Part shown: positions 2,073 to 22,971 of the stretch, piece by piece
Layout: every line of letters starts with the position of its first letter
Position numbering within the stretch: position 1 is the first letter of the stretch
Source of the DNA: a virus
Reading direction: 5' to 3' (one strand)
DNA length: 22,971 nucleotides
IMG/VR virus record: IMGVR_UViG_3300000595_000006
Location: 1-22,971 of that record
Notes under the pieces: generated by a model
What the model saw: the letters and a program-made list of their open reading frames with translations, nothing else
What the model was told of the DNA's origin: nothing
Database searches by the model: none
Program-made: the position numbers and the translations under genes

Positions 2073-4595
2073 ATGACCTTGGAAGAAATATTCGGCCTCG
2101 AAAATCAGGACCTCATTGACCAGGTCCGCGCACAGAACCGCGCCAAAGCCATCGAATACATCGATCGCTACACGAAGCCCATGCCCACCGAGGAAGTCAC
2201 CGACTGGGCCCAGAAAAACGTCCGGTTCGACGAACCCAAATTTCGCGGCTCCTTCAGCATCGCCACCCGCCATTACCTCGAAGAAATCCTGAACCTCTGG
2301 CGCCGCGACCTCACCAACGAAATCACCGACATCATCTTCTGCGCCGCCACCCGCTCCGCTAAAACCAGAATCCCCATGGCCGGAGCTGCGTACCGCATCG
2401 CCCTCGACCCCATGCGCTGCCTCTGGACCAAACCCATGAAACACGGCGCCGGCGGCAGTCGCAATGACGCCATCACCAAATTCATCCCCATGCTCAAAGC
2501 CAGCCCGGGATTGAAACACGCTTGCGACCGGTGCGATAAAAATTCGCTCAACGGCAACCAACAACGCATCAACGGCAGCATCATCGATTGGGAAGGCACC
2601 GGCTCCGCCAAGCAACTGAGCGGCAACCCCGACGACGTCGTCGTCCAGGACGAGTGCGACGGCTACGTCCTAAAAGGCAACAACGAAGCCCACCCCAGCA
2701 TCCTCGCCGACGAACGCACCAAAGACGCCACCAACCCGTTGCGCTACAAAAGCTGCAGCCCCACCGTCGAAGACGGCGTGATCTGGCAATGGCTCATGCG
2801 CTCCGACCTCCGCCGCCGCTTCCTGCCCTGTCCGCGCTGCAATCCCAATGCCAAGGTAGGGCGCGTCACTCCGTGCGCGCCGAACTCCTCAACTCCTCAA
2901 CTCCTCAACTCCCAAACTCGGCTCAAGGGTTATTTCATCCTCGCCTGGTCCGAACAATACAACGTCCTCCCGAATAAATTGCCCGACGGCACACCCATCC
3001 CCATCGCCTACATCAAATGGGACCCCGCCGCCAAACACCGCGACGGCTCGTGGGATTTGGATTTAGTGACGCGCACCGCCCACGCCGTCTGCCCCCATTG
3101 CCAGGGCAAAATCCACAACCACGAAAAAGAATGGATGGATACCCGCGGCTTCTGGCTCTCCACCAAAAAAGGCGCCCCCGGCGTCGCCGGCTTCCAACTC
3201 AGCAGCCTCTACGTCACACACGATGAAACCGCGTGGGGCATCCTCGCCAAAAAGTTCCTGCTTGCCCGCGCCAACGGCCAAAGCATGAAAGGCTTCATCA
3301 ACAACGACCTCGCCGAAGTCGACGTCATGCAGGAACATGGCCGCAACAAACTCGAACTCAACACCGCCCCCGCCGCGCAAACCGATTGGGTCGCCATCCT
3401 CACCGCCGACTTTCAGAAAAACTGGCCCTACCTCTGGTTTGTCGTGCGGAAATGGTGCGCGTTCAAACTCCTCCCGCCCTTCGCCATCACCAACGGACTC
3501 CCCGACTTCGTCCCGCTGCTCGAATTGCCAGAAAACGCCGACCCGCGCGAAAAATGCCGGAAACTTCTGGGACTGAAGACTGAGGACTCTGGACTGTGGA
3601 CTAACAACCCCGCCTGGCTTGTCATTGCCGAGCTGATGCGCTTTGACAGCCGCACCGGCCCTTCGCCGCTCATCGAATTCCTCCTCGCCCAGGGCATCAC
3701 CGGCGCAAAACTCGTGAAATTGTACCGCGAAGACGCTAAAGCCAACACTATGGACTTCCGGAAAAAGATTCACGAACTCATGGCCGCTCAAGATGGCCGC
3801 ACCGCCAGGTGCCCCAGAGGGGGCGATTCCGAGCTCGTCGCCGCCGGCTACTGCGAACTCTCCGGCCCCGCCGCGTGGGAGGAACTCAAAGACGTCGTCA
3901 AACAATACCAGGTCGGCAAAGGCATGCTCATCCCCAACCGCTGCGTCCACATCGATTGCGGCTTCGCGGAAAAATTCAACCGCGTCGTCCTGCAAATGTG
4001 CTACGAAAGCGCCAGCATCTACAAATATTATGACCCCATCAACTCAACCAAGAACGTCCCGCTCTTTTACGAAACCCCTCGCCACCAATATTGCCTGCCC
4101 GCGCCCTACGATGGCTGGCTGCCCGTCCGCGGCAAACCCACCAACCGCCCGCTCGGCACCGGCAAACTGCATCCCGAGCTCAACATTGATATCGGCGATC
4201 CGTATTACGGCACGCCGAATGCCGGCACGAGCGTCACGGAAATTTTGGAAATCCCCCAAGGCCTCTTCTGGTTGCGCAAAGAAGACCTGCGCCAAAAACG
4301 CACCAAACAACTCTACACCGTCAGCCCCAACGTCGAATGGTTCCCGCGCCTCTACAACGTCGACGGCTCCCTGAGAATCGAAGGTGGACGTTCCACCTCC
4401 AATTTCAAACAGGCGGATTACGAGCGGCAATTGAACGAACAATATTTCGATGAAAAACGCGCCGTCGTCGTCCCGAAACACGGCAAAGGCGGCAGCCAAT
4501 CCAAAATGCACCCGTACCATTTGGACGACTGCGAGACCTACCAAATCGGCAGCGCCACCCACAACGAATTCTTCGAAGAAACCGAATCAAAATAG
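2073..4595 (+). CDS. terL: Terminase large subunit, GpA family
   Basis: This is the packaging motor and nuclease that cuts concatemeric phage DNA and pumps it into proheads. The ATPase region has a Walker A segment 'AATRSAKT' (Lys97-Thr98) and a Walker B 'DDVVVQDE' (Asp193-Glu194). A zinc-binding region follows (FLPCPRC ... AHAVCPHC), typical of GpA. The C-terminal nuclease shows 'HIDCGFAEKFNRVV' (Asp628) and the late 'HPYHLDDCE' (Asp818/819). At 840 residues it is about 200 longer than lambda gpA (641). Part of the excess is foreign: repeat-like tracts sit in frame at about 2855-2919 (inside the normally compact CPxC segment), 3571-3603, 3795-3835 and 4382-4398. The ATG at 2073 lies 1 nt after the previous stop. 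Whether the protein still works with these inserts is uncertain. Confidence 0.93.
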   Translation: MTLEEIFGLENQDLIDQVRAQNRAKAIEYIDRYTKPMPTEEVTDWAQKNVRFDEPKFRGSFSIATRHYLEEILNLWRRDLTNEITDIIFCAATRSAKTRIPMAGAAYRIALDPMRCLWTKPMKHGAGGSRNDAITKFIPMLKASPGLKHACDRCDKNSLNGNQQRINGSIIDWEGTGSAKQLSGNPDDVVVQDECDGYVLKGNNEAHPSILADERTKDATNPLRYKSCSPTVEDGVIWQWLMRSDLRRRFLPCPRCNPNAKVGRVTPCAPNSSTPQLLNSQTRLKGYFILAWSEQYNVLPNKLPDGTPIPIAYIKWDPAAKHRDGSWDLDLVTRTAHAVCPHCQGKIHNHEKEWMDTRGFWLSTKKGAPGVAGFQLSSLYVTHDETAWGILAKKFLLARANGQSMKGFINNDLAEVDVMQEHGRNKLELNTAPAAQTDWVAILTADFQKNWPYLWFVVRKWCAFKLLPPFAITNGLPDFVPLLELPENADPREKCRKLLGLKTEDSGLWTNNPAWLVIAELMRFDSRTGPSPLIEFLLAQGITGAKLVKLYREDAKANTMDFRKKIHELMAAQDGRTARCPRGGDSELVAAGYCELSGPAAWEELKDVVKQYQVGKGMLIPNRCVHIDCGFAEKFNRVVLQMCYESASIYKYYDPINSTKNVPLFYETPRHQYCLPAPYDGWLPVRGKPTNRPLGTGKLHPELNIDIGDPYYGTPNAGTSVTEILEIPQGLFWLRKEDLRQKRTKQLYTVSPNVEWFPRLYNVDGSLRIEGGRSTSNFKQADYERQLNEQYFDEKRAVVVPKHGKGGSQSKMHPYHLDDCETYQIGSATHNEFFEETESK
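2855..2919 (+). repeat. In-frame dispersed repeat inside the terminase gene
   Basis: After CCAATGCCAA the sequence becomes a GGGCGCGTCACTCCGTGCGC phrase followed by about three AACTCCTC copies and AACTCCCAAACTC. It is translated as 'VGRVTPCAPNSSTPQLLNS' plus a few residues, low-complexity sequence without a family equivalent. It separates CPRC from the following 'LKGYFILAW' strand that normally comes directly after it. The length keeps the reading frame. A similar CAACTCC/CTAAACTC tract occurs at 5952-5990. Confidence 0.7.
3571..3603 (+). repeat. GACT-rich imperfect tandem repeat inside the terminase gene
   Basis: GACTGAAGACTGAGGACTCTGGACTGTGGACT is a run of degenerate GACTNNNG units, read in frame as LKTEDSGLWTN. 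It resembles the other short repeat insertions in this gene and has no counterpart in family motifs I know. Confidence 0.5.
4382..4398 (+). repeat. Perfect hairpin-type repeat AGGTGGA-CGT-TCCACCT in the terminase gene
   Basis: A 7-bp perfect inverted repeat with a 3-nt loop is read in frame as EGGRSTS. Its compact palindromic form suggests a REP-like mobile palindrome and not selected protein sequence. Confidence 0.45.
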
Positions 4596-7546: not shown

Positions 7547-7548
7547 TC
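7527..7548 (+). repeat. Repeat type B, copy 2, at a convergent gene boundary
   Basis: Identical over 22 bp to 5539-5560. It contains the stop codon of the plus-strand gene ending at 7546 and the stop of the minus-strand frame ending at 7547, so it marks the breakpoint at which the minus-strand transposase-like frame ends. Confidence 0.8.
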
Positions 7549-7837
7549 ACCATTCTTTCGCGGCTACCCCGTTACGGCTTTGAGCCATGAGAAACACGGC
7601 GAAGAACCAAGACTTCAAACTGGTTTCGCTCTTGTGGAAAATCGTCCCGGCTGTCGGATGCAACTGGAAGCCGCAGAACGAACAAGCGTAACAGCGGCGG
7701 CCCGTGACCTTGTAGAAACAGTTGGTCTTTCCACATTCGCATTTTCCCCCATCAGGCCAACGATTCCAGAAGATAAACTCCAGACATACATCGTCGTTCG
7801 GAAAGTCCGCGTCGAATTGTTTGAAGCTATACTTCAT
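7547..7837 (-). pseudogene. IS1595-family transposase, N-terminal zinc-ribbon fragment
   Basis: The 96 residues match the start of IS1595-type transposases: 'FKQFDADFPNDDVCLEFIFW' and NRWPDGGKCECG, a zinc ribbon made of CECGKTNC and CYACSFC, then 'HPTAGTIFHKSETSLKSWFF' and 'LMAQSRNGVAAKEW'. Full proteins run to roughly 200-300 residues with a DDE-type catalytic domain; none of that domain is present. The frame ends exactly at a type B repeat, so it appears cut at that point. The start overlaps the upstream minus-strand gene by 11 nt, which looks like an operon and not a fresh insertion. It may therefore be a domesticated stand-alone zinc ribbon; I classify it as a remnant because the catalytic part is missing. 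Confidence 0.65.
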
Positions 7838-9268: not shown

Positions 9269-9727
9269 GTGACGAATAAAAGTCCGGAAGCCTATCTCGC
9301 CAAGCTGCTGATCGCCTGGGACCGCGCCACCGATGGCGCGAACACCCTGCGCCCGCAATTCATCACCGAATTAAAAGCGGCGGATGCCCTGGTTGCTTCC
9401 GGTTCCATCGCCAGCGTCGGCAAAAATTCCGCGAACCAAACCTACAAAGGCTACGGCCCGGGCGGCGATACGCAGGAAGAAATTCGCGGCATGTGGGCCA
9501 GCCTCCTCGCGCTCTACGACCAATTGAAATCCAAAATTACCGCTGAATTCGAGGCGAGCGCAGATTTTGATTTCACCGCACCGGCAGATTTTGATTTCGA
9601 CGCGCCGATTTACGATATCCTCACCAAAATTTTCACCACCCAATCCACCGGCGGCGTGGTTTCGCTCCCGGATATTGGCGATCTCCGCGTCCCGCTGGAT
9701 TACTCCGCCACCATCGCCACCGCGTGA
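9269..9727 (+). CDS. Hypothetical head-region protein in the gpW position (152 aa)
   Basis: The GTG start at 9269 follows a GGAGG at 9249-9253 with a long spacing of 15 nt; no better start is visible. The protein has an N-terminal helical part (EAYLAKLLIAWDRATDG), a Gly-rich middle 'YKGYGPGGDTQEEIRGMW', an imperfect internal repeat 'ADFDFTAPADFDFDAP' and an aromatic-poor C-terminus. In lambda-like phages a small head-completion protein (gpW) lies between terminase and portal. Here the position relative to the portal is the same and the 4-nt overlap (GTGA) shows coupling. The sequence does not resemble gpW closely enough for me to call it one, and it is twice as long. Confidence 0.6.
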   Translation: MTNKSPEAYLAKLLIAWDRATDGANTLRPQFITELKAADALVASGSIASVGKNSANQTYKGYGPGGDTQEEIRGMWASLLALYDQLKSKITAEFEASADFDFTAPADFDFDAPIYDILTKIFTTQSTGGVVSLPDIGDLRVPLDYSATIATA

Positions 9728-11619
9728 AAAAGAAATCATTCCAATTCAAAAACACGCGCACCTCCCGGAAAACGGTGAACAAAGGTCCGATTCGGCTCAC
9801 CGCGGCGCAACGCAGAACTCGAAACCAAAAACGCGAAACCAAAAACGAGGCGCGCGCCCTCGGCGTGCTCGCGGTCACGAATCCCTGGACGGCCAAAAAC
9901 GGAACGCGCTCACAACGCCGCATTGTGGAGCGCGCCGTCGCCTGCCTCAGCAAAAATCAAGCGCACCTGGTCCGCAATTGGTACGAGAGCGGCAATCCCT
10001 ACGGCGATGGCACCCGCAGTTTCCTCCCGGAAACATTGACGGACGCTCGCTACGATCAGAACACCGTCACTCGCCGCGAGATGATGCGCCGCATGCGCTA
10101 TTGGGAGCAGAATTCCGGGATCCTCAAGAGCGGGTTGGATGTCGGTGAACAATACATCATCGGCACGCACGTTCCCGTGGTCACATCCACGGCCTCCGCT
10201 TCCGATTGGGCCACCAAAGCCGAGGCGGTGTTCATCGAAATGTGCGGCAACGCCGGGTTGAACGGCGAAACATTCTTTGACCTGCTCTGCATCGGTCACC
10301 GCCGGAAAAAAGTGGATGGCAACGTTCTCTTTGTTGAAACCAGCAAACCCGGCGCCATCACCATCCGCGCCGGCACCAAATACGAGACCGAGCTGAATCT
10401 GTTAAAACCCTGCTTCCAAATGGTGGAAGCGCACCGCATCGGCACGCCCTTCGCGCTCTGGCAGGAAAACGATTTGGACATCTTCGACGGCGTCCAATAC
10501 CGCACGATCGAGACGAAAATGCCGGATGGCCGCATCCGCCGGCAAAAAGTGCGCTCGCATTTCTGGGTGAATGACTCCGCGAACGATTTCAGCGCGGAGG
10601 AAGGCTTCACGGATGTTCCCATCGAGAACTGTTACTACGCGGCCAGCGCCCATCGCGTGAATGAAACGCGCAGCGTGAGTGATTTTTACGCCGCTGAACC
10701 CACGCTCGCGCTGCTCGAAGACCTGCTCAAGATGGAAATGCGCGCGCAGGAAGTGCAGAGCGACATCGCCCTGTTCATCACCAACGGCGCGGGCGCGATG
10801 GTGAATGAGAAAACCGCCGCCACCATGGGCGGGCTCGGCATCAAACTGAGCAAGGATGCAGATGGAAAACCCGTCGTCACCGCCAAGGATGTGGACGCCG
10901 TCAAAGCCGTTTACGAAAAAATCTGGGGCGGCCGCACTGCGATTGGCCGAACGGGCGATACCTTGACGGCCATGGCTCCGAACCGCCCGGCGGAAGCCAC
11001 GCTGAACCTCTGGAATTACCTGATCAACCTTTTTTGTTCCGCCGCGCGCCTCCCACGCCTGCTCGTATTCCCCACCATGAATCGCGGCCAGGGCACGGAA
11101 GTGCGCGCCGAGATCGAGAAAGCCAACGCCGCGTTCATCGCGGAATTCAATCGCATTTGGAAACCGTTCATTCATCGCGCCTGGAAATATTTCATCGGTT
11201 GGGCCATCAAAAACGATGAACGCCTGAAAAACGCACCCGCGGATTGGGCCAGCATTGAAGTTTCTCCGCCGCGCAGTCTCACCGTCGATATCGGGTATGA
11301 TAACGACGCGGACCTCGCCAAACTCGCCGCCGGCGTCACCAACCTGCACACGCTCGCGCAGAAATACGGCACCACCAAGAGCAAACTGATCAGCCAATCC
11401 GTCAGCGACCTCTTCGACATCAAACTCGCCTGCGCCAAAAAAGCCGAGCAATCCGAATACGCCCAATACGGCATCACCGTGGATGCCGCCGAGGTGCGCA
11501 ATAACCTCGGCGACGTCGTGAAAAACCTCGCCGCCATGAAAACGGCGGATGCCGCCAAAGCCACTGCGGAAGCCAACGCCGAAAACCCGGACCAAGAAAA
11601 GGAGCTTATCGCCGCATGA
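9724..11619 (+). CDS. Phage portal protein, lambda family
   Basis: The portal is the dodecameric ring at one capsid vertex through which DNA is packaged and ejected. The N-terminal core shows the family's run 'SQRRIVERAVACLSKNQAHL', 'MMRRMRYWEQNSGILKSGLD' and VGEQYIIGTHVPVV, the helix-rich wing with 'LALLEDLLKMEMRAQEVQSD', and a late 'PRLLVFPTMNRGQGTEVRAE' then 'FNRIWKPFIHRAWKYFIGWA'. The 631 residues exceed lambda gpB (533); part of this is an N-terminal extension of about 45 residues that includes a 14-bp tandem repeat. The GTG start overlaps the preceding stop (GTGA), and its own stop overlaps the next ATG. The last 60 residues are Ala/Glu-rich. Confidence 0.9.
   Translation: MKKKSFQFKNTRTSRKTVNKGPIRLTAAQRRTRNQKRETKNEARALGVLAVTNPWTAKNGTRSQRRIVERAVACLSKNQAHLVRNWYESGNPYGDGTRSFLPETLTDARYDQNTVTRREMMRRMRYWEQNSGILKSGLDVGEQYIIGTHVPVVTSTASASDWATKAEAVFIEMCGNAGLNGETFFDLLCIGHRRKKVDGNVLFVETSKPGAITIRAGTKYETELNLLKPCFQMVEAHRIGTPFALWQENDLDIFDGVQYRTIETKMPDGRIRRQKVRSHFWVNDSANDFSAEEGFTDVPIENCYYAASAHRVNETRSVSDFYAAEPTLALLEDLLKMEMRAQEVQSDIALFITNGAGAMVNEKTAATMGGLGIKLSKDADGKPVVTAKDVDAVKAVYEKIWGGRTAIGRTGDTLTAMAPNRPAEATLNLWNYLINLFCSAARLPRLLVFPTMNRGQGTEVRAEIEKANAAFIAEFNRIWKPFIHRAWKYFIGWAIKNDERLKNAPADWASIEVSPPRSLTVDIGYDNDADLAKLAAGVTNLHTLAQKYGTTKSKLISQSVSDLFDIKLACAKKAEQSEYAQYGITVDAAEVRNNLGDVVKNLAAMKTADAAKATAEANAENPDQEKELIAA
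9820..9847 (+). repeat. 14-bp perfect tandem repeat in the portal gene
   Basis: CGAAACCAAAAACG occurs twice head to tail and is read as part of 'RNQKRETKNEA' in the N-terminal extension of the portal protein. Length 28 bp is not a multiple of three, so the units are read in different frames. Confidence 0.75.
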
Positions 11620-13940
11620 AAGTGAATCGCGTCAAAAAACTTTTCAACTACGCCGATGGCCGCGGGATAATTCGCGTTTCCTTTAATGCGGATAAAACCG
11701 ATGAGCCCGCCGAGATTTTGATTTGCGAGGAAATCGGGAGCGACCCGTGGAGCGGCCAGGGATTCACTGTAAAAGATTTGCGCTCGGCGCTGGATTCCAT
11801 CACGCCTCGAACTCGGGACCTGAATATCCTGATGAATTCTCCCGGCGGCAGCGTGAGCGAAGGCTGCGCCATCCGCAACCTGCTCGAGCAATGGCAGGGA
11901 AATATCACCAACACCATCATCGGTGTGGCGGCCTCAACCGCCAGTTGGTGCATTCCCGCGAACGTCACGCGCGCCTACAAAAACAGCCAGGTGTTTCTGC
12001 ACCGCTGCATGGCGTTCACGATGGGCAATGCGGACGACTTGCGCCGAACGATTGATTTCCTCGAAACGACGGATGGGCAAATCGCGCAAATGTATGCCGA
12101 TCAGGCCGGGGGTGAACCGGATGAATACCTCGACCTGATGAAAGACGAAACCCTGCTCACCGGTCAGCAGGCCAAGGACCTCGGGCTCGTGGATGAAATT
12201 GTCGATGGCGAAGCGCAAAACAATTTCTCCGATCAATGGCTGAACGCCGCCAAACAGAAACTCGCTGCCCTCAATTCTCTGCGCTCTTCACAGCAGGGCG
12301 CATCAACCGACAACCACCAACCAAAGGACACATCTGTGAACCTCCAGCAAAAGCTCGCCCTGCTCAACAAACGGGGCATTACTCCGCCGGCCAATTGCAC
12401 TGAATCGCAAGCCGATGAACTCATCACCAAGAGCAACATCGGCCGCACGATGAACATTTCCATTCTCACCGATTGGAAGGTTCAATTCGATGCCGAAAAT
12501 GCCACCGATGAGCAACTGACCAAGCTCGTCAAGGACGGTAAACCGGTCGCCGCCAACAACGCTCCCGCGCCCATCGTGCTCGACCAGGTCACCAAAGACC
12601 GCCTGGAACGCCTCGAGCAGCGCGAGAAAGCCCAGCGCCGCGAAATCATCCAGAACAAACTCACGAAATTCGCGGAGGAAGGCCGTATCACCGTCAATCA
12701 GATCGAAGAATATACGAACCTCGCCGCCGAAGCGCAGGATGATCCGGTCAAGGGCAATCCCATCATCAACCTCGTTTCGAAGAACGATCCCAAAGCGCCC
12801 GGCATTCCCGCGCTCCCCGAGAACCTGAACAAGCTGGAAGTCGTGAGCGCGGCCATCCAGGACCTCGCCCGCGGTTTCGAAGCGCATGATGAGGCTTCCA
12901 AAGCCTGGCAGCGCGGCAACAACAACGTCTCGATGGAAACCATCCGCAACAATGCGGTGGCCAAGGCGAATTTCTTCAAGAAATTCCGCAACCGCTTCCT
13001 CGAGGTGATGAACACCAACACCATCGCCACGGAGCTCAAGCGGCAGGTCATTTTGCAGGATGTTGTCATCCGGGATTTCGTCCGCCGCGTGCTCAGCCTG
13101 AACATGTTTTCCACCGTATTCCAAAATGTCCCGCTGCAGGGTTTGAACACTGTGGAAGTGCCGTACTACGATCTCGATAGTTCCGCTTCCACGAGCTTCG
13201 TGAGCGGCACGGGCTACACGACGATCGGCAACACCACCACCGACAAGCGCGAAATCACCATCGGCGAAGGCGCGGCCAATGGCGACCGGCTCTACCAGGC
13301 GCTGCAATTCAGTTCGCAGGAAATCGCCCGCCAGCCGTACCTGAAAATCGCCGAGCTCGCCGGTCTCAAAGCCGAGAAACTCGCGTTCGATATCTGGCAG
13401 GACATTCTCAGCATCATCACCGCCGCGAATTACGGCGCCGCGGCCATCACCAAAGTGTCCGCGCTCTTTTCCAGCGATGACCTCGCGGACTTGAAACTCG
13501 CCTGCAAAGCGTGGCCGGAAATGGGCCGCGGTTTGATTCTGGACAGCGCCTATGACGCGAACCTGCTCAAGGATCCGAGCTTCAAGCACGCCCTGAACGC
13601 CGCGAGCGATTCCGCCATCAAGGAAGGCCGCTTATATCCGCGCGTGATGGGTTTTGATTACACGGAAAACCCGAACATCCCCGCAAATGGTGAAAACCTC
13701 GTCGGCTTCGCGGTATTCAAATACGCGATCCTCGTAGCCTTCGCTCCCGTTCCTCCGGTCGAGGAAGTGCGCAACGCCGGCACCGTGTGGGAATTGATCA
13801 CCGACCCCGCGACCGGCATCTCGCTCGAATACCGCCGGTTCGGCGACAACGTGAAGGACTTGGCCACGAACGTGATCGAATCCAGCTACGGCTTCGCCAA
13901 AGGCCTCGGCACCGGCCTCAAACGCATCACCAGCGCCTGA
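11616..13940 (+). CDS. ClpP-like prohead protease fused to major capsid protein
   Basis: The N-terminal 200 residues form a ClpP-type serine protease: 'LNILMNSPGGSVSEGCAI' (oxyanion NSPGG, residues 74-78), 'GVAASTASW' with candidate nucleophile Ser107, 'VFLHRCM' with His129, and 'KDETLLTGQQAKDLGLVDE' supplying an Asp near 177. A charged, partly coiled linker (about 215-435) would act as scaffold. The C-terminal 340 residues ('KANFFKKFRNRFLEVM' onward) look like an HK97-fold capsid protein with 'MFSTVFQNVPLQGLNTVEVP', 'LAFDIWQDIL' and 'LVGFAVFKYAILVAF'. In most phages protease and capsid are separate genes; here one 774-codon frame joins them without a stop, so self-cleavage is expected to release the shell protein. 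An internal ATG near 12932 could also start a capsid-only product. ATGA overlap with the portal. Confidence 0.85.
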   Translation: MKVNRVKKLFNYADGRGIIRVSFNADKTDEPAEILICEEIGSDPWSGQGFTVKDLRSALDSITPRTRDLNILMNSPGGSVSEGCAIRNLLEQWQGNITNTIIGVAASTASWCIPANVTRAYKNSQVFLHRCMAFTMGNADDLRRTIDFLETTDGQIAQMYADQAGGEPDEYLDLMKDETLLTGQQAKDLGLVDEIVDGEAQNNFSDQWLNAAKQKLAALNSLRSSQQGASTDNHQPKDTSVNLQQKLALLNKRGITPPANCTESQADELITKSNIGRTMNISILTDWKVQFDAENATDEQLTKLVKDGKPVAANNAPAPIVLDQVTKDRLERLEQREKAQRREIIQNKLTKFAEEGRITVNQIEEYTNLAAEAQDDPVKGNPIINLVSKNDPKAPGIPALPENLNKLEVVSAAIQDLARGFEAHDEASKAWQRGNNNVSMETIRNNAVAKANFFKKFRNRFLEVMNTNTIATELKRQVILQDVVIRDFVRRVLSLNMFSTVFQNVPLQGLNTVEVPYYDLDSSASTSFVSGTGYTTIGNTTTDKREITIGEGAANGDRLYQALQFSSQEIARQPYLKIAELAGLKAEKLAFDIWQDILSIITAANYGAAAITKVSALFSSDDLADLKLACKAWPEMGRGLILDSAYDANLLKDPSFKHALNAASDSAIKEGRLYPRVMGFDYTENPNIPANGENLVGFAVFKYAILVAFAPVPPVEEVRNAGTVWELITDPATGISLEYRRFGDNVKDLATNVIESSYGFAKGLGTGLKRITSA

Positions 13941-14021: not shown

Positions 14022-14774
14022 ATGCAAGAAACCATTTTAATCGCCCGCGACCGAAAGACCGGCAAGGACATCCTCCTGTGCGGCCGCGAGGTGCCCTATC
14101 CCGACCAGCGGGAACGATACGAGGAATTCAATTCCCAAACTCACGAGGAATATTCGAGCGTTGCCCTGGTTTACCTGCAACCCGCCAAGAAGCCGCTCCA
14201 ATTCCTCAGCGAATCGGAAGTCAAAGCCCGCGCGGAAAAGCACGAGCAATTGGTCGCGACGTCCAACGCCAAATCCGAAGCCAAGGACGATGCGCTTCCG
14301 AAAAATCTCGCCCAGGCCAAGCAGGCCTTGACCGATGCCGAATCCGCTTGCGAAAAGGCAAATCAAGCCTTTCAAGCCGCGAAAAAAGCCTTCGGCATTA
14401 GCGCCGACGCGGCGGAGAAACACTTGCTTCATTCCAAAATGCTGGAGGCAAAAAAAGCTGCGCGCCTCGCCATCTCCGAACTCGAAACCGCCCGTCAGGA
14501 ATTCTTCCGGATGCAGCACGAGCACATGGCGAATCCTCCAGCGGAACCGGAAACGCCAAACCCGAAACCCGAAATTAAGCGGGAGCCGACGCCCGGTGAA
14601 AAGCGCGAAGCCGAACTGCTCAAGCAGGACAAATCTTCGTTGCTCGCCATGGTCGAAAAACTGAAAGCCGAAGGCAAAACCATTGACGCCGGCAAAGGCA
14701 CCAAATCCGCGCTCGTGACCGCCATCCTCAAAGCCGAAGGCTTCGACCTGACGGTCCCTGAAACCGCCGAATAA
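14022..14774 (+). CDS. Coiled-coil protein with a C-terminal HeH/LEM-like helical domain (250 aa)
   Basis: ATG at 14022 follows an AAAAGGA at 14003-14009. Residues about 1-70 form a small beta-type N-terminal domain (ETILIARDRKTGKDILLCGR). About 85-175 is a long Ala/Lys/Glu-rich coiled coil ('LAQAKQALTDAESACEKANQ' and on). After a Pro-rich link (PAEPETPNPKPEIKREPTPG) the end, 'LLAMVEKLKAEGKTIDAGKG' followed by TKSALVTAILKAEGF, has the helix-extension-helix pattern of HeH/LEM or SAP-like modules that phages use to bind DNA. Its position directly after the capsid gene suggests a head-completion or DNA-stabilising role, but I cannot name the family. Confidence 0.65.
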   Translation: MQETILIARDRKTGKDILLCGREVPYPDQRERYEEFNSQTHEEYSSVALVYLQPAKKPLQFLSESEVKARAEKHEQLVATSNAKSEAKDDALPKNLAQAKQALTDAESACEKANQAFQAAKKAFGISADAAEKHLLHSKMLEAKKAARLAISELETARQEFFRMQHEHMANPPAEPETPNPKPEIKREPTPGEKREAELLKQDKSSLLAMVEKLKAEGKTIDAGKGTKSALVTAILKAEGFDLTVPETAE

Positions 14775-14816: not shown

Positions 14817-15329
14817 ATGAATACGAAATTAAAAAAGCTGTTCCGCAGTCTGATGATCACTTCTGCATTCTGCATTCTGCATTCTGCATTGCCCGCCAAG
14901 GCCAACGACCAAATGCAGGGCGATACCAACACCCTGGCCGCGTTCTCCACGAACACGTTCAGGCTTTATAACGATGTCACCGGCACCTTCACCAACGGCC
15001 AGGCCACATCCGTCGCGCCTTACATCTACTGCACCAAGGGTGCGGACGCCTGGATTGAAGTGGGCGGCATCTTCACCAATTCCGGCGCCGGCCCGAGCAA
15101 CGTCACTTACCGCATCGCCGGTTCCGTTTCCGGATCCCAATGGACGAACAATTACGCCAGCGTGACGCTCGCCGTTCCCGTGGGCACCAATTACCAATCG
15201 GCCATCCTGTTTCTGCAACATCCCCCGCCGTTCATTGGATGGCGCTCCTTTGAGAATCCCAACACTGGAAACGTTTCCACGCGCACCGGCACCGGCTATC
15301 TCAAAGCCTACATCAAAGACGGCATCTGA
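14817..15329 (+). CDS. Small exported protein with repeat-encoded signal peptide (170 aa)
   Basis: The N-terminus is a classical Sec signal: KLKK basic residues, a hydrophobic core 'LMITSAFCILHSAL' and a probable cleavage site PAKA|ND. The core is encoded by four TTCTGCA heptamers (14861-14888). The mature part is Thr/Asn/Gly/Tyr-rich and beta-like ('NTFRLYNDVTGTFTNGQATS', 'ADAWIEVGGIFTNSG', 'YQSAILFLQHPPP'), similar in composition to the large fibre downstream. I do not recognise a family. The Cys in the core does not fit a lipobox (Phe at -1), so a lipoprotein is unlikely. It sits between a head-type protein and a possible head-tail connector, so a virion or periplasmic role are both possible. 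Confidence 0.65.
   Translation: MNTKLKKLFRSLMITSAFCILHSALPAKANDQMQGDTNTLAAFSTNTFRLYNDVTGTFTNGQATSVAPYIYCTKGADAWIEVGGIFTNSGAGPSNVTYRIAGSVSGSQWTNNYASVTLAVPVGTNYQSAILFLQHPPPFIGWRSFENPNTGNVSTRTGTGYLKAYIKDGI
14861..14890 (+). repeat. TTCTGCA heptamer microsatellite (4 units)
   Basis: Four perfect heptamers encode the signal-peptide core. Because 7 is not a multiple of 3, three units give the seven-residue cycle FCILHSA. Related tracts occur at 15834-15860 and 20219-20246. Confidence 0.9.
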
Positions 15330-15361
15330 TTCGCGCTCACGCAACCCGTAACCACTCGACC

Positions 15362-15703
15362 ATGTCTTTGAGTGATAAAATGCTCGCCGGCGGATGTGCT
15401 TTGCACGTCGAAGCCTTCCACGGCGAGCCCATTTTAATCCTCTCGGGACGCGAGGCGGGCAAAACCTTCATCGCCGTGCGCGAAAGCGAGACCGACCAGG
15501 TTCTCACCACCGACCTCGGCACTGACCCGCGCGCGCGCCGCGTGTTGCGTTTCCGCGATGGTGCACCAGTTCCGAACCTGGCTTCGCAGGATCGCCTCCA
15601 AACAGAGGATGGAAAAATCTGGAACGCCGTCAAAGCCCCGCAGGATGGCTATCTCAGCACGGATTTTGACCTCATCGAATGGGTTCCCGACCTCGACACA
15701 TGA
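15362..15703 (+). CDS. Possible head-tail joining protein (gpFII-like) (113 aa)
   Basis: The protein is small and beta-rich: 'ALHVEAFHGEPILILSGREA' and 'TFIAVRESETDQVLTTDLGT', then 'DRLQTEDGKIWNAVKAPQDG' and YLSTDFDLIEWVP. The order (an attachment segment, a D-x-L-x-x-x-x-G-K-x-W turn, then the P-x-D-G-Y strand pair) is reminiscent of lambda gpFII and other head-tail connectors, although identity is too low to be sure by eye. Its position between head genes and the fibre supports this. It is coupled by ATGA overlap at 15700 to the large fibre gene. An alternative is a small structural protein of unknown type. Confidence 0.45.
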   Translation: MSLSDKMLAGGCALHVEAFHGEPILILSGREAGKTFIAVRESETDQVLTTDLGTDPRARRVLRFRDGAPVPNLASQDRLQTEDGKIWNAVKAPQDGYLSTDFDLIEWVPDLDT

Positions 15704-18700
15704 ACACTCAAGGCAGAAGGCAGAAGGCAGAATGCAGAATTTCCGTAGTCGCTCGCCGAGGCTCTGCGCTCGTCGCGGCGGCAATGCGCTCCTCCCGCTT
15801 GTCCGCCGCGGCCTTCTGGCTGCTATTCATTTCTTCATTCTGCCTTCTTCATTCTGCCTTCGCGGCGCAGATGCGCTTCGGCCCATACACCAATGCGCTC
15901 GATGGCAATGTCATCACGAATAGTTACCTGACGGTGCGCGCGGTCGGGGATCCGGGAATCGATGCCGCGGGAAATGTGACGGGTGCGATTGGCTTGCCGT
16001 TGCGCGTGTTTCTCGGCGCGGATGGCATGGCCACCAACACGCTGCAGAATCAGAATTATTTCGTCACCAACGCGCTCGGCAGCGTGGCGTTCCTGAACAA
16101 AGGCTATCTGTTCCGCGCGCCGCTGGATTCCGGACCCACCGTTTATTCCACCACCGCGCCCGGCATTCTGATCACGGGCATGAATTATTTCGTGACGCTG
16201 GGCGGCACGGCCACGACCACGAATATCACCTTCAACCAGGTCACCAACGGGCTCGGTTTCACGCCGCTGCCGAACGCCGGCACGAATGGGTTTATCGGTA
16301 AACCGGATGGCACTAATATTTCCACCAGCATTTCCATCACCTACAGCAATTCGCTCTACAGTTTTTTCAACACCCAACTCGCCATTCAAAGCGCGCTCGG
16401 GCTCACCAACGCTTTCGCGACCAATGCGCCGGGCGTGGTTTATTCCGGCGGCCGCATTTACGTCAGCACCAATTACGATGCGCTCGGCACCGCGTTGGCC
16501 GTTGGCGCGGGCGCGACCAATTTCACCGTCTCAGCCAGCAATACGCTGTTCGCGCTGCATTCGATGAGCCTGACCAATGCGTTTGCCACGAATGCCGCGG
16601 GTGTCACTTACGTGAATGGCCGTGCTTACATCAGCACGAATTACGATTCCCTCGGCGCCGCGGTGCTTTCCACGAACGGCTTTTCCTCCCTCGTTTATAC
16701 GAATCCGGGAACGGTGGCCTACACCAATCAATTGCTGTCATTGATTCAAGCCACGAACCTCGCGCTCTCCGTCGCTGCTCCGCTTACCAATGGCTTCGTC
16801 GGCCCGGGCATCACGAATGGCTTCACCACCATTCAATTGCTCAATTCCACCAGCAACACGCTCGCGACGGCCTCCAGCTCCGGCATCAACGCCGCGACCG
16901 CGACCAACATCAACAATGCGGCCGCGGGTGTGATTGCCACGAATGGAGTCGGATTGACGTATAAATTTTCCGCCGCCGGCACGAATGCGATTCTGGCCAT
17001 TGCTCCCACAACAAACGGCCTTGTTGACGCATCCATCACGAACAATTCCGCCACCAAGGCTTACGCGCAGAGTCTCACCAATGGATTCGTCGGATCCGGA
17101 ATCACGAACAATTCCGCCACGATTTCTCTTTTGAACGGCGCGAGCAATTTGCTTCAGAACGCCAAAATGGCTTCCACCAACGGCTTCAGCACCAATCAAG
17201 TCATCGCCGCCGGCAATGGCACCAACGGCTTTTCCATGTCCGATGGAAATACTTTGGTTAAAATCGATTCCCCCGGATCCGCGCTCAAGGTTTCCACGCT
17301 CAGCAGCAATTACAACATTTCCATTAGCGTGGTGGATGATAATTCCGGCACGGGCGACATCATTGGTCCCCAAGGCCAGGCATTTCAATTCAATGTGGAC
17401 GGTGAAATTGCCATGAATGATAGCGGCGGAGAAATTATCCGCGCCAGTGAGACGGAAGGCATTCTCATTCAGGACGGCAACGATCACGCCTTTCAGCTCG
17501 ATCCCATTACGGGCAATTTAACACTGACCGGCGGCGGTTCATTCGCCGGGGATGCTTCCCAAACGACCGGAAAAGTTTCTTCCACCAACGGCTTCGCCAA
17601 AAATCTCACCGCCACCAACAACACCGCGCTGGAAGGTTCCATTTCTTTCGGTCCCACCGGGCAAGCCACAAACATCGTTTCCTCCACGAATTATTTGTAC
17701 TTCGTCGGCGCGGGAACCTCGCTCACCACCAATGGCGCGCTGGTTTGGAACGCCGCGCTCAAGATTTACACCAACTGGTCCAACGGCTCGATTCTCACCA
17801 ATAACAGTACTGCGTGGCTGTATCAAACCAACGGGCTCACGCTGTATTCCCTCTCCGGCAGTTCCCCGATCGGAGCGTATTCGGCGGTGAACGGCGATCT
17901 GCCCGCTCCGGCCGCGTATTACACGGCCGCGATGAATGACCACATGGTTTTTCTCGGGCCATTGTCGGTCACGAACCTGAATGCGATTTCCAACGCCATC
18001 GTCGTGAACGGTTCTTTCGCCGCTGCTTCCAATTCCATCGCGAACAACAACGGATTCGGCACGAACACCTATCTCGTCAATCCATCCGCCACCAATTGGG
18101 CGAGCGTGGAAAATTTCTTTTTTCAATTCGCCGCCAATGGCCAGTGGAACACCAACGCCGGCGGCGCGGGTTTTGGCGCGGCGGTCCTGAGCGGCGCCAC
18201 GAACCGCATCTTCAATCATGGCGCGAGCGTGATTGCGGGCGGCATGTATAACAAGGTGCTCGGCTTTGGCCGGAACTGGGGCGCGATCCTGGGCGGTCTC
18301 TCCAACGTGGTGGATAGCGGAGATGCCGTCAGCATCGCCGGCGGGACGATGAACTCCACGCTGAACAGCTATTACGATTTCATCGGCGGCGGCCAGTTCA
18401 ACGTCATGACCAACGCCCAATGGGCCTCGATTCTTTCCGGTTACTACAACACCAACGTCGACACCGGCGGGACCATTCTCGGCGGTCAAAGCAATTTTGT
18501 CCGCGGCAATTGGAGCCTGGCTTACGGAACCAAAATTATCATCACGAATGATAACAGTGTCGTGTTCTCCGACAGTCCCGCGAATACCACCACCAATTCC
18601 CAATTCATCATCCAGGCCACCAACGGGCTCACTGTGTTGGAAGGCGGCCTCACTGTTACCAATGTGAACCCCGGCGCGGCTCTCGCGGCGCTCGGCGTCA

Positions 18701-20190
18701 CCGCTTCCGGCCAATTGACCACCAATGCCGTCCCCGGCCCGGGCGGCGGTGCGGGCACCGTGACCAGCGTGGGCGCGGCCGTGCCCAGCGGATTCTCCGT
18801 GAGCGGCACGCCCATCACCACCGCGGGCACCATCACCATCACGCGCTCGGGCGATGCCAACAACGGCGGCAACGGCCAAATGAACATCGGCGCATTGCAG
18901 GCCACCGGGCTCACGCAGCTCGGCGGCCAGGTGACGATGAATGCGCTGATCGTCACCAACGGACTCACGAACAGCAGCTTGACGGCCGGAACTCTGACGA
19001 TCGCTGACGGTAACAAAAAACTCGCCTCACTCGCCAACGGCGTCGGCGTGCTAACCAATGATGGCAACGGAGTGCTGGGATATCTTTCGCCCAGCAGTTT
19101 CGGCGGCGGTTCGCCGCTTACCACCAATGGCCTTCCTGGACAAACCTACCGGTTATCGACCAATGGAGTTTCTCAGGAATTGACCAATTTCGACGCGCCA
19201 CTCGGATGGCCATTTACCAAGCCGATTATCTGGATCGTGGGTGGCGATTCCATTCCTTACGGACTGAATGTCGCCCACGCGTTTTGGTATTATGAAACGA
19301 ATAACTTCGCCCCGGCTGGATCGATTGTTCTCGTCGACACCAACGCCTGCGTTCCCGGTTCACAATCCACCACGATTCTTTCCCGCATGCGGACGGAATG
19401 GGCGAAGTATAGCACCTCAAATAATTTCACGGTGCTTTCAACGGTCTGGATTGGCGTGAATGATTTCAACGCCAACACCACCTGGCTGCAGGTCTATACC
19501 AACATCGACGAATGCGCCATGGAAGCGCATGCCTCCAATTCGCTGTTCATGGCCACGTGTATCACGCCGTCCACGGGAATGGCCTCTGCCAATCGATATT
19601 CATTGAATTGGTTCAATCTGAATCTCATCAACAACACCAATCGGCATTGGGATTTCCTGATGCGTCCCGATTTGGCTCTGCTCAATTCACAACCGGATAG
19701 CACGCTTTGGGTGGATGACGTTCATCCAACTGAACTTGGACACAGCAATGTTGCCTACAGTGTGGATTACACTTTGCGTCACGTTCAGGGGAGCACCTAC
19801 AACCCGAACATTCTGCAAGGGAGCCACTACATTCTGGGCTATGGGACGGACCCGCAAGGCTACGCCGCATCAGTCGTGGGCCAGGCTCAATATCCTTTTG
19901 TGGATCTCTATCGCCCTGGCGCAGCGGCGTTGTATTTCGGTCCCTTCGCAAACAGCGACGGCGGCACGGCGGATTTCCATTACAACAACAGCGATTCTAC
20001 GCACGACGGTTCGACGCTGTTCATGCAAGTGCGCGGAAAGACAAACGTTTGGTTCCGCCACGCCGTCACCTTCACCAATGCGCCGGAATTGATGCTCACC
20101 AACGCGGCGCCGGGGAACACCACCACTCCAAAATTGTGGTTCCCAGTCACGAATAATGGCGCCGTGTTCATGGTCCCAGGTTATCAATGA
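15700..20190 (+). CDS. Giant tail-fibre-like protein with SGNH hydrolase domain (about 1496 aa)
   Basis: Order of regions, counted from ATG 15700. A signal-like segment (about 29-56) ends in 'FCLLHSAFA'. A long repetitive Thr-Asn-Gly-rich shaft follows (about 75-780; many TNG, TNAF, TNGF units). A block at about 843-948 has six [IV]xGGxxN-type repeats spaced 15-18 residues, a beta-roll or beta-helix pattern. The phage-fibre phrase 'GTVTSVGAAVPSGFSVSGTP' lies near residue 1019. An SGNH/GDSL hydrolase domain has GGDS with nucleophile Ser1184, GVND (Asn1254-Asp1255) and DDVH (Asp1339, His1342). A beta-rich C-terminus ends 'GAVFMVPGYQ'. The hydrolase would deacylate surface polysaccharide during attachment. 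A start at 15784 (MRSSRLSAAAFW) gives a normal-length signal peptide; 15700 gives ATGA coupling to the upstream gene. Both are plausible. Confidence 0.85.
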   Translation: MNTQGRRQKAECRISVVARRGSALVAAAMRSSRLSAAAFWLLFISSFCLLHSAFAAQMRFGPYTNALDGNVITNSYLTVRAVGDPGIDAAGNVTGAIGLPLRVFLGADGMATNTLQNQNYFVTNALGSVAFLNKGYLFRAPLDSGPTVYSTTAPGILITGMNYFVTLGGTATTTNITFNQVTNGLGFTPLPNAGTNGFIGKPDGTNISTSISITYSNSLYSFFNTQLAIQSALGLTNAFATNAPGVVYSGGRIYVSTNYDALGTALAVGAGATNFTVSASNTLFALHSMSLTNAFATNAAGVTYVNGRAYISTNYDSLGAAVLSTNGFSSLVYTNPGTVAYTNQLLSLIQATNLALSVAAPLTNGFVGPGITNGFTTIQLLNSTSNTLATASSSGINAATATNINNAAAGVIATNGVGLTYKFSAAGTNAILAIAPTTNGLVDASITNNSATKAYAQSLTNGFVGSGITNNSATISLLNGASNLLQNAKMASTNGFSTNQVIAAGNGTNGFSMSDGNTLVKIDSPGSALKVSTLSSNYNISISVVDDNSGTGDIIGPQGQAFQFNVDGEIAMNDSGGEIIRASETEGILIQDGNDHAFQLDPITGNLTLTGGGSFAGDASQTTGKVSSTNGFAKNLTATNNTALEGSISFGPTGQATNIVSSTNYLYFVGAGTSLTTNGALVWNAALKIYTNWSNGSILTNNSTAWLYQTNGLTLYSLSGSSPIGAYSAVNGDLPAPAAYYTAAMNDHMVFLGPLSVTNLNAISNAIVVNGSFAAASNSIANNNGFGTNTYLVNPSATNWASVENFFFQFAANGQWNTNAGGAGFGAAVLSGATNRIFNHGASVIAGGMYNKVLGFGRNWGAILGGLSNVVDSGDAVSIAGGTMNSTLNSYYDFIGGGQFNVMTNAQWASILSGYYNTNVDTGGTILGGQSNFVRGNWSLAYGTKIIITNDNSVVFSDSPANTTTNSQFIIQATNGLTVLEGGLTVTNVNPGAALAALGVTASGQLTTNAVPGPGGGAGTVTSVGAAVPSGFSVSGTPITTAGTITITRSGDANNGGNGQMNIGALQATGLTQLGGQVTMNALIVTNGLTNSSLTAGTLTIADGNKKLASLANGVGVLTNDGNGVLGYLSPSSFGGGSPLTTNGLPGQTYRLSTNGVSQELTNFDAPLGWPFTKPIIWIVGGDSIPYGLNVAHAFWYYETNNFAPAGSIVLVDTNACVPGSQSTTILSRMRTEWAKYSTSNNFTVLSTVWIGVNDFNANTTWLQVYTNIDECAMEAHASNSLFMATCITPSTGMASANRYSLNWFNLNLINNTNRHWDFLMRPDLALLNSQPDSTLWVDDVHPTELGHSNVAYSVDYTLRHVQGSTYNPNILQGSHYILGYGTDPQGYAASVVGQAQYPFVDLYRPGAAALYFGPFANSDGGTADFHYNNSDSTHDGSTLFMQVRGKTNVWFRHAVTFTNAPELMLTNAAPGNTTTPKLWFPVTNNGAVFMVPGYQ
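15711..15860 (+). repeat. Inverted heptamer tracts at the start of the fibre gene
   Basis: AGGCAGAAGGCAGAAGGCAG plus AATGCAGAA (15711-15739) is roughly the reverse complement of the TTCATTCTGCCTTCTTCATT CTGCCTT tract at 15834-15860. The two flank a 94-bp segment. In mRNA they could pair over about 20 nt and enclose the internal ATG at 15784. Confidence 0.7.
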
Positions 20191-22971
20191 GATTCCTCGC
20201 CCTCATTTTATTCCTGTTTTCTGCATTCTGCATTCTGCATTCTGCCTTCTCCCAGACCTACATCGGCGCGGAGACCACGCAAACACTGCCCGGCCCGGCT
20301 TACAATTACCGCGTCATCGGCAATTGGCCGGATTCCAACTCCGTGAGCCAATTGAATCCGCCCGTCTTCAAATGGATTTACGATGAAACGATTCCCCTCA
20401 CGGCGAGCAATGACGTGCGCCTGTTCCATTTTCAACTGAGCACGAACGCCACGCCGTTCAGCTCCACGGTTTGGGACATCGCCTGTTCGAATAATTTCTA
20501 CAACCTCGTCCCGCCCATCACGAATGCGGATGGCAGCACTTACACCGGTCCCTGTTTCTGGCGCGTCAAATACTACGATACGAACTTCAGCCTGCTCGCC
20601 ACCGGCCCGACGCATTATTTCACGATGGCGCCGAACGCCACGCTCTGGGATCGCTCCATGCTCGCGGATACGAATTACCGCGCGACGTTTCATCATCCCT
20701 ACCTATATTTCAAAGGCACCAATCACGGCGCGCTCGCAGCCGGTCTGCCTTCCGTCTGGGATTTCCACACGCTCAGCATCAGCGGCATCGCGAGTTCCGT
20801 GGTGAATTTCTACCAGGAACAAACCTGGTGGGGTAATTCCACCATCACCAATGGCGGCGAGAGCACCGCGTTTCTCGCGATCGGCGGCGCGGCCAGTTGT
20901 GCGTTCAGCTATTACCTGCTCAATAGCAATAATGTTTATGATGTCGATGGCGCCTGCGCCTCGCTCAGTTTCGCCGCCACCGCCATTCGCCAGCAAAATC
21001 TCGATCTCATCGATCCCTACGTCAGCGATCCCGGCGCGCTGCAACAATTCTGCCTCGCGCGCGATTGGCTGTATCCGTTCATGACGACTGATGAGCGGAC
21101 CAACACGCTCTACACGCTGCGCACGCTGGCGATGTACGGCGCTTACGGCGGCGCGTGTTTTTATGGCGATGTGAATTTCTCGCCCACGAATCGGGATTAT
21201 CCCTATTTCCCATTTCAAGCGCCGTTCTACAGCGCATTCAAACTCGGCAGCTCGCATCCGCGCCATGATGTGGAAGTCGGTTTAATGGCCTGCCTCGCCG
21301 GCATGAATGAAGATCCCGTGCTGCGCGATCTGTTGCCGCTCTTCCTGAATTACTCGGTGTTCCAACTGGATCCCGATTTGGGCGATGAAGGCCGCGGCTA
21401 CGCGCAACAGGATAATTTCAAATTTGACCGCGAGTTCAGCGCCGCCGGCTGCGCCATCATCACCTTTCCGGAAGCGCATTTGGAACGCAATCCACTCTGG
21501 ACGAATCTCTCGCGATTCTTCGCCTCGTGGGACATCACCGGTTATCGCGGCGTGTTTGAAGGCGGCGATCTCGGCTACGGCTACGTGAACCAAATGTATC
21601 ACTACCGCTATCACGACGTCGCGGACATCACCGGGGATGGCGCGTTGCTCCGCCAGTACAATCGGCAATATAACAATTTCCGGCTGAACGCCGCGGATGA
21701 ATTCCCGCTGCTCGGCGAAGCGTTCTATAATTATTATTTCCCGAAGCCCGCCGAGACCGATTACCCGCGCAACGAATACTTCGATCCCATTCGCGGGCGA
21801 ATGTTTTCCGGTTCCTTGCCCTCGAGCGACAACGGCGCATTTACGAATGGTTCCACGCTGTTCATGGATGCGCGCCCGGCCGGCCGCAACGCGGACCACG
21901 GCAGTTACACCGATGGCGATTATCAATTTCTCTTTCACGGCTGCGAAATCAAAGCGCAAGGCGCGGCGCAGGGTTACGCGAAGCACCCGATGTATTACGA
22001 CACCGTGCTCGTCAACGGCATCGGCACCCGCACGCAGATTGCCCCGCCGAGCGATCCGGTCTATTCGTGGTTCGATCACTATACAAATTGCCCGGAATAC
22101 ACCTACGCCTCCGCGAACCTCACACTCGCCTACAATCGCACCAACTTCATCCAGGGCGGGCTCGGCGATCAAACGCTGCTCTACTACAGCCAGCTCACCA
22201 ATTGTGAGCCGCAAGTCTCGCTCATGCGCCGGCACGTGTTCTTCCCGCACAAACGCTACATCGTCGATTACAGCGAATGCCAGACCACCACGAACTCGTT
22301 TTTTCAATGGGTCTATCACATCGCGCAACCCGGCGCGACCGTCGACGCGAGCGGCTGCAGCTTTCATTATCCCTGCACCAATACTTACGACGGCACCACG
22401 CAAACGGTCTACGTCCTGCCCTTCGTCAGCACGAGCAGCATCGGCTTGCTGAATGAAAGCGGGACCAACCTCGCGAAGTTCAATCCCTTCACCGGCGAGA
22501 ATTACATGGGCGCGGATAACGACACCGGGCCGTTCGTCAATAACGTCATTTGGATCACCAACCGCGTCGCGACGACCGCGTTTCATTTCGGATACGTGAT
22601 TTATCCCGCGCTGCCCGGTGAAGCCGCGCCCACGCTCACGCGCCGTTCAGACAACAGTTTTGAACTAACCACCGCCACTCTGCACGACGGCATTTCATTT
22701 GCCGAAACCAACTCGACGATTCAGGCGCAAAGCCTCGGCACGAATTATTTCATCCTGAACACGTTCAACACCACCACCAACCTGGTCGGCCCCGACAGCG
22801 ATCCCAACACCAACACCGCCCCGCAGCTCTACGCGCCCGTCCGCGCCTTCACGGATTTGGATGAACGCGATGATGCGCCGGAAGCATTCCTGAGTTACGC
22901 CGCCATTCAAGCCGATGCGCTCGCCCAATCCGACCCGCGCCAGCCGGCGAACGCCACCAATGCGGTTACAG
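20187..22971 (+). CDS. Heparinase II/III-like polysaccharide lyase with signal peptide, 3' partial
   Basis: The frame opens at an ATG overlapping the fibre stop (ATGA) and stays open for 928 codons to the window edge. The signal peptide 'MRFLALILFLFSAFCILHSA' with cleavage near FS|QT is encoded by the heptamer tract. Residues about 45-140 ('LNPPVFKWIYDETIPL') resemble the Fn3-like N-terminal domain of heparinase-type lyases. About 150-530 is Trp/Tyr-rich and helical, as in an alpha/alpha toroid, including 'GYGYVNQMYHYRYHDV'. From 555 the heparinase II/III beta-sheet signature appears: 'MDARPAGRNADHGSYTDGDY' (His571, Asp576) and 'YYDTVLVNG' (Tyr603-Gly611), where the family usually has HN-tvlv-dG. 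Predicted role: eliminative cleavage of uronic-acid polysaccharide. Sub-family and the exact catalytic residues cannot be fixed by eye. Confidence 0.75.
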   Translation, partial: MRFLALILFLFSAFCILHSAFSQTYIGAETTQTLPGPAYNYRVIGNWPDSNSVSQLNPPVFKWIYDETIPLTASNDVRLFHFQLSTNATPFSSTVWDIACSNNFYNLVPPITNADGSTYTGPCFWRVKYYDTNFSLLATGPTHYFTMAPNATLWDRSMLADTNYRATFHHPYLYFKGTNHGALAAGLPSVWDFHTLSISGIASSVVNFYQEQTWWGNSTITNGGESTAFLAIGGAASCAFSYYLLNSNNVYDVDGACASLSFAATAIRQQNLDLIDPYVSDPGALQQFCLARDWLYPFMTTDERTNTLYTLRTLAMYGAYGGACFYGDVNFSPTNRDYPYFPFQAPFYSAFKLGSSHPRHDVEVGLMACLAGMNEDPVLRDLLPLFLNYSVFQLDPDLGDEGRGYAQQDNFKFDREFSAAGCAIITFPEAHLERNPLWTNLSRFFASWDITGYRGVFEGGDLGYGYVNQMYHYRYHDVADITGDGALLRQYNRQYNNFRLNAADEFPLLGEAFYNYYFPKPAETDYPRNEYFDPIRGRMFSGSLPSSDNGAFTNGSTLFMDARPAGRNADHGSYTDGDYQFLFHGCEIKAQGAAQGYAKHPMYYDTVLVNGIGTRTQIAPPSDPVYSWFDHYTNCPEYTYASANLTLAYNRTNFIQGGLGDQTLLYYSQLTNCEPQVSLMRRHVFFPHKRYIVDYSECQTTTNSFFQWVYHIAQPGATVDASGCSFHYPCTNTYDGTTQTVYVLPFVSTSSIGLLNESGTNLAKFNPFTGENYMGADNDTGPFVNNVIWITNRVATTAFHFGYVIYPALPGEAAPTLTRRSDNSFELTTATLHDGISFAETNSTIQAQSLGTNYFILNTFNTTTNLVGPDSDPNTNTAPQLYAPVRAFTDLDERDDAPEAFLSYAAIQADALAQSDPRQPANATNAVT
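20219..20246 (+). repeat. TTCTGC[A/C] heptamer microsatellite (4 units)
   Basis: TTCTGCA three times and TTCTGCC once encode the core of the lyase signal peptide, the same arrangement as at 14861-14890. Confidence 0.9.

Follow-up and report, generated by a model that had tools for sequence, protein, structure and literature searches.

The window, a 22,971-bp virus record that was analysed over its whole length, probably represents a phage late operon, from a relative of Verrucomicrobia phage P8625, carrying predicted export signals that are older than the repeat now spelling them. Between the capsid and tail genes, this operon would encode proteins destined for Sec export: a small protein with a beta-sandwich fold, another that is fibre-like, and a heparinase-like lyase. 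In the first two the signals appear ancestral in the phage family, and the lyase signal resembles those of its cellular relatives. A TTCTGCA-type heptamer would have rewritten the hydrophobic cores of all three signals, and only in the lineage of the window. The exported proteins would work at the infected cell's envelope or surface, and not as assembled parts of the virion.

Gene order in the window

The features of the window are listed below by position and strand.

2073–4595 (+): terminase large subunit, GpA type (Pfam GpA_ATPase, E 1.6e-27; PHROG terminase, E 1.5e-45)
9724–11619 (+): portal protein (Pfam Phage_portal_2, E 2.9e-17)
11616–13940 (+): fusion of head maturation protease and major capsid protein (PHROG protease, E 4e-49; major head protein, E 8e-9)
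14022–14774 (+): conserved gene between the capsid gene and the signal-peptide gene, without a signal
14817–15329 (+): capsid-adjacent protein with a Sec-type signal, supported by alignment; mature part predicted to be a beta-sandwich (model pLDDT 61)
14861–14890 (+): (TTCTGCA)4.3 tract, coding for the hydrophobic core of the 14817 signal
15362–15703 (+): head-tail connector-like gene, its role judged by position only, without a signal (relatives 43–52% identical)
15700–20190 (+): long repetitive fibre-like protein with a Sec-type signal; start uncertain, at 15700 or 15784
15710–15739 (−): antisense heptamer array, which the leader of the 15700 start reads as GRRQKAECR; 5′ arm of a hairpin
15831–15861 (+): TTCTTCATTCTGCC tract, 2.2 copies, encoding the core FISSFCLLHSA; 3′ arm of the hairpin
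20187–22971 (+): signal-bearing protein related to DUF4962/heparinase-II/III-like lyases, incomplete at the contig end
20219–20250 (+): (TTCTGCA)4.6 tract, encoding the core of the 20187 signal

The closest isolate to the capsid fusion protein is Verrucomicrobia phage P8625. A PHROG profile search with the connector-like gene at 15362 gave no match. Upstream, a 96-aa frame at 7547–7837 (−) resembles, as judged by eye, the zinc-ribbon N-terminal part of an IS1595-type transposase.

The contig is linear, lacks end repeats and ends within the lyase gene, as might be expected of an assembly artefact or of a piece of host genome misjoined to phage genes. However, 4-bp start/stop overlaps join 15362 to 15700 and 15700 to 20187, and independent contigs have the same order from the capsid through the fibre-like gene, making an artefact scarcely credible.

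Heptamer-encoded signal cores

An earlier note on this DNA described FC[IL]LHSA cores, encoded by TTCTGCA-type tracts, in the Sec-type signals at 14817, 15700/15784 and 20187, and these are present as described. With a slash marking the judged cleavage point, the N-termini read MNTKLKKLFRSLMITSAFCILHSALPAKA/NDQ (14817), MRSSRLSAAAFWLLFISSFCLLHSAFA/AQM (15784; a start at 15700 adds 28 residues) and MRFLALILFLFSAFCILHSAFS/QTY (20187). Both TTCTGCA tracts are perfect, and the tract in the fibre-like gene consists of a 14-bp double unit, TTCTTCA plus TTCTGCC. A two-unit heptamer pattern allowing up to two mismatches matched the window 12 times, against 0.15 expected from shuffled sequences. When three arrays were placed at random, the chance of all being in sense orientation and within signal regions was about 7e-8, a crude and post hoc figure. 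The association of heptamer and signal in the window is clearly not accidental.

The claim that the heptamer is hydrophobic in every frame holds for the sense strand, which reads FCILHSA with a mean Kyte-Doolittle value of 1.63; the antisense strand reads CRMQNAE, with a mean of −1.26. Of 2340 distinct heptamers, 142 are both free of stops and at or above a mean of 1.6. Being hydrophobic and stop-free in all three sense frames, the heptamer would be tolerated in a signal core.

The fourth array, at 15710, has the unit AAGGCAG and pairs with the array at 15831; the RNA hairpin predicted from this pairing is strong (−79.6 kcal/mol, z −4.75). This hairpin, in the segment 15690–15875, lies right after the 15700 start codon and could affect translation of the fibre-like gene.

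Conservation of the capsid-adjacent signal

Related contigs were reached through the capsid protein of the window, and 13 of them, the window included, cover the adjoining gene. Signals were scored by a simple rule on hydrophobicity, charge and cleavage site, not by SignalP; applied to phage D3, the rule flagged 2 of 64 proteins, both spanin-like exported proteins. The order of capsid gene, 14022-type gene, signal gene and 15362-type gene is kept in the 13 contigs, except that in L180 and L184 an additional gene separates the signal gene from the 15362-type gene. By this rule the capsid-adjacent protein has a Sec-type signal in 13/13 contigs, with a positive n-region, a hydrophobic core and small cleavage residues, and the gene on either side of it has one in 0/13. 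The heptamer occurs only in the window copy; the loci of the 12 relatives contained no array of two or more units.

The mature parts of the capsid-adjacent proteins align, and an HMM of the mature part finds the window copy at E 8e-21, a value to be read in light of that copy having been included in the HMM. None of the 13 members had a PHROG or Pfam match at E ≤ 0.01, and single-sequence searches with the 14817 and 20187 proteins returned no direct viral homologues. At the level of sequence, we regard the conserved export signals predicted on these capsid-adjacent phage genes as the principal finding.

All four close contigs covering the fibre-like gene (the window, L167, L168 and L172) have a signal on it, in three of them without the repeat. 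Its mature N-terminus aligns among the window, L167 and L168, the signals of the latter two being repeat-free, and in L172 the sequence VRLLLFMLSALSASAQ is read after the connector gene. The head-tail gene run of L167 also contains a 186-aa signal-bearing protein resembling an outer-membrane barrel (L167:18539–19099), and a lipoprotein with an fn3 domain lies in the same operon (L167:16114–16719). Separately, a prophage fibre-like gene at L229:8444–10342 combines a signal peptide, a collagen-like stretch below the Pfam cut-off and BNR (sialidase-type) repeats.

The same arrangement, with a signal protein beside the capsid, is found in a second capsid lineage (L016, L021 and L031; PHROG major head protein, E 2e-35; head-tail adaptor, E 1e-5); the signal protein there is a relative of the first family by hhalign (probability 91%, E 1.2e-6). 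More distant prophages (L228, L229 and L230) have a signal gene after the capsid gene. One 52-kb contig (L167/L170) contains two different head modules, one window-like and one labelled Mu-like by reading, and the Mu-like module also has signal-bearing genes beside its capsid gene.

The arrangement is not general among HK97-type prophages, an idea ruled out by 28 other prophage capsid loci (PHROG family 10; rough gene calling), none of which had a signal counterpart (0/20 in Verrucomicrobiota, 0/8 in Bacteroidota). The isolated phage P8625 resembles the window in the order of terminase, portal, ClpP-like protease and capsid and is the best isolate match, but it has no SignalP-positive protein (PMC4642752) and, with counterparts judged by position, no space where a 14817 gene would lie. 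The premise that such signals are unusual beside capsid genes is thus borne out, and the 28 signal-free loci together with P8625 indicate that the capsid-adjacent signal is lineage-specific rather than universal. No homology could be detected to the capsid-adjacent proteins that lack a signal in other phages (phrog_5707/28483).

A putative host-type lyase at the contig end

The 20187 protein has cellular homologues at 25–32% identity, with E-values down to 2.4e-14. These homologues match DUF4962 and in part Hepar_II_III_C, and five of six of their genes start with a visible ordinary signal or lipoprotein signal. The 20187 protein itself had no Pfam match, DUF4962 and Hepar_II_III included, so we describe it as related to these families and do not file it as a member. 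No homologue was found in annotated phages. It is like the DUF4962/heparinase II/III-like lyases of Verrucomicrobiota over much of its length and in having an N-terminal signal, and it is set apart from them by its low identity, its place in a phage operon and its heptamer-encoded signal core. It looks like a host-type secreted enzyme carried by a phage.

The heptamer probably rewrote existing signals

The earlier note had proposed that expansion of the heptamer at gene starts created export signals de novo. The tract is hydrophobic and free of stops in every sense frame, and most of each signal core consists of it. In unrelated bacteria, too, some plausible secreted proteins (L045, L046/L076, L080, L083, L085 and L271) have signals with repeat cores, for example MKKLFSTFCILHSAFCISFAQ. 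However, the counterparts of 14817 and 15700 in related phages have ordinary repeat-free signals, and the cellular relatives of 20187 likewise have ordinary signals. Since relatives lacking the repeat also have signals on these genes, the heptamer would, in one lineage, have taken over the core of signals that already existed. On this comparison we reject a de novo origin for the 14817 and 15700 genes and judge it unlikely for 20187; as a general account of the signals, it is very improbable.

The heptamer itself is ordinary, being present in many phyla and in 27 stretches of viral contigs. In four Verrucomicrobia genomes, about one of the 51 arrays inspected (L271) is the signal core of a credible gene; arrays thus seldom become signals, a further argument against a de novo origin. 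When 335 genomes of the class were scanned for ATGA followed by three units, three matches emerged, none in a convincing secreted gene, and our literature search on the heptamer repeat in Verrucomicrobia found no paper.

The further proposal, that a phage virion gene thereby becomes a secreted host enzyme, is not supported in that direction, because the relatives' signals are ordinary and repeat-free: the signal appears old in the phage family, and the lyase looks host-type.

Heptamer arrays often occur as inverted pairs, which look like a dispersed palindromic repeat element. Such pairs form intergenic hairpins in several places in L028 and L034 and at the G002 loci L255, L259, L261, L264 and L265; the hairpins of L028 and L034 have a recurrent short loop, TGAAAGACTTTTGA.

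Arrays also occur inside coding sequence. The portal-protease fusion gene at L016:3290–6316 (PHROG portal at aa 42–439, head protease at about 800–960) has a linker with four arrays, all in the hydrophilic CRMQNAE reading. The arrays seen in long, strongly coding viral genes read hydrophilic and those in the window signals hydrophobic, so array orientation seems to be filtered by place within the protein; the cut-offs for this comparison were set after the data were seen, making it suggestive only.

Possible slippage switching

In Neisseria opa genes, CTCTT repeats lie in the leader-peptide region (PMC3960869). The layout in the window is similar: a tandem repeat in the 5′ or signal-coding region, with a unit that is not a multiple of three, so that a change of one unit shifts the frame. 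The tracts could thus be contingency switches by which each of three surface proteins is turned on or off on its own within a population of phages or prophages. In simulations, gain or loss of one or two units truncated all three proteins, to 46–120 of 170 aa (14817), 69–81 of 1496 (15700) and 50–68 of at least 928 (20187), and a change of three units kept the frame. However, the window differs from opa in its 7-bp unit, its roughly four copies, its phage genes and the lack of observed variation, and the 15831 tract is imperfect. Viral contigs searched for length variants of the 14817 tract yielded none, nor a second copy of the locus, and in one unrelated pair (L046/L076) the copy number was equal. 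With only about four units per tract, slippage should be rare. Switching is compatible with the reading of rewritten ancestral signals; given the unit number and the absence of variants, we treat it as a possibility, and a rather doubtful one.

Possible destination of the predicted exported proteins

With modest confidence (pLDDT 61–66), 14817-type proteins are modelled as a beta-sandwich with a signal helix. Sequence searches with this protein against solved structures (PDB) gave no match. The models weakly resemble TNF-like lectins, carbohydrate-binding modules and XepA in fold, with no PDB resemblance below E 0.001, and one BFVD entry resembles the fold at E 9.7e-4. XepA, an exported protein of prophage PBSX, offers a parallel as a beta-sandwich protein (a fold predicted in the 14817 type) exported by a prophage, but its Foldseek E-value is only 0.016 and no sequence relation was found.

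Phage-encoded exported proteins include Lom and Bor of lambda, Llp of T5 and Cor of phi80 and N15, some of them encoded in late regions close to tail genes. Like the capsid-adjacent family, these are phage genes with export signals; unlike it, they are scattered accessory genes, the family described here being fixed beside the capsid gene in 13/13 contigs.

The conserved predicted signals, the presence of the tract in the window only and the orientation of the tracts can be read from the sequences themselves. The most economical interpretation, we infer, is a late-expressed set of proteins for the host envelope, which would bind or mask surface sugars and receptors, degrade matrix and perhaps block re-adsorption or alter surface sugars.

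The place of the 14817 gene between capsid and connector genes is equally suited to a virion decoration protein. The capsid-adjacent and fibre-like proteins might be virion parts that travel by way of the periplasm and join the particles during lysis or afterwards, consistent with the locked capsid-connector position in two capsid lineages and with a predicted jelly-roll-like fold resembling the kind seen in decoration and receptor-binding domains. We consider this unlikely, as the heads of tailed phages are normally assembled in the cytoplasm and no precedent was found in the literature searched. A bolder version, to which we give little credence, is that a tailed-phage lineage sends a capsid-associated protein and its fibres through host Sec, so that particles are decorated outside the cytoplasm, with the signals of one lineage doubling as slippage switches. 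If this were true, heptamer slippage in that lineage would vary the decorated surface.

The heptamer provides a clear natural case of a repeat overwriting the core of a signal peptide and leaving its job unchanged, and such tracts should not be read as newly born signals. A predicted exported protein fixed beside the capsid gene in all the family members covered here, and common to two capsid lineages, is undescribed in the libraries and papers searched, and it poses a testable question: whether the capsid-adjacent proteins are located on virions or on the dying cell's surface.
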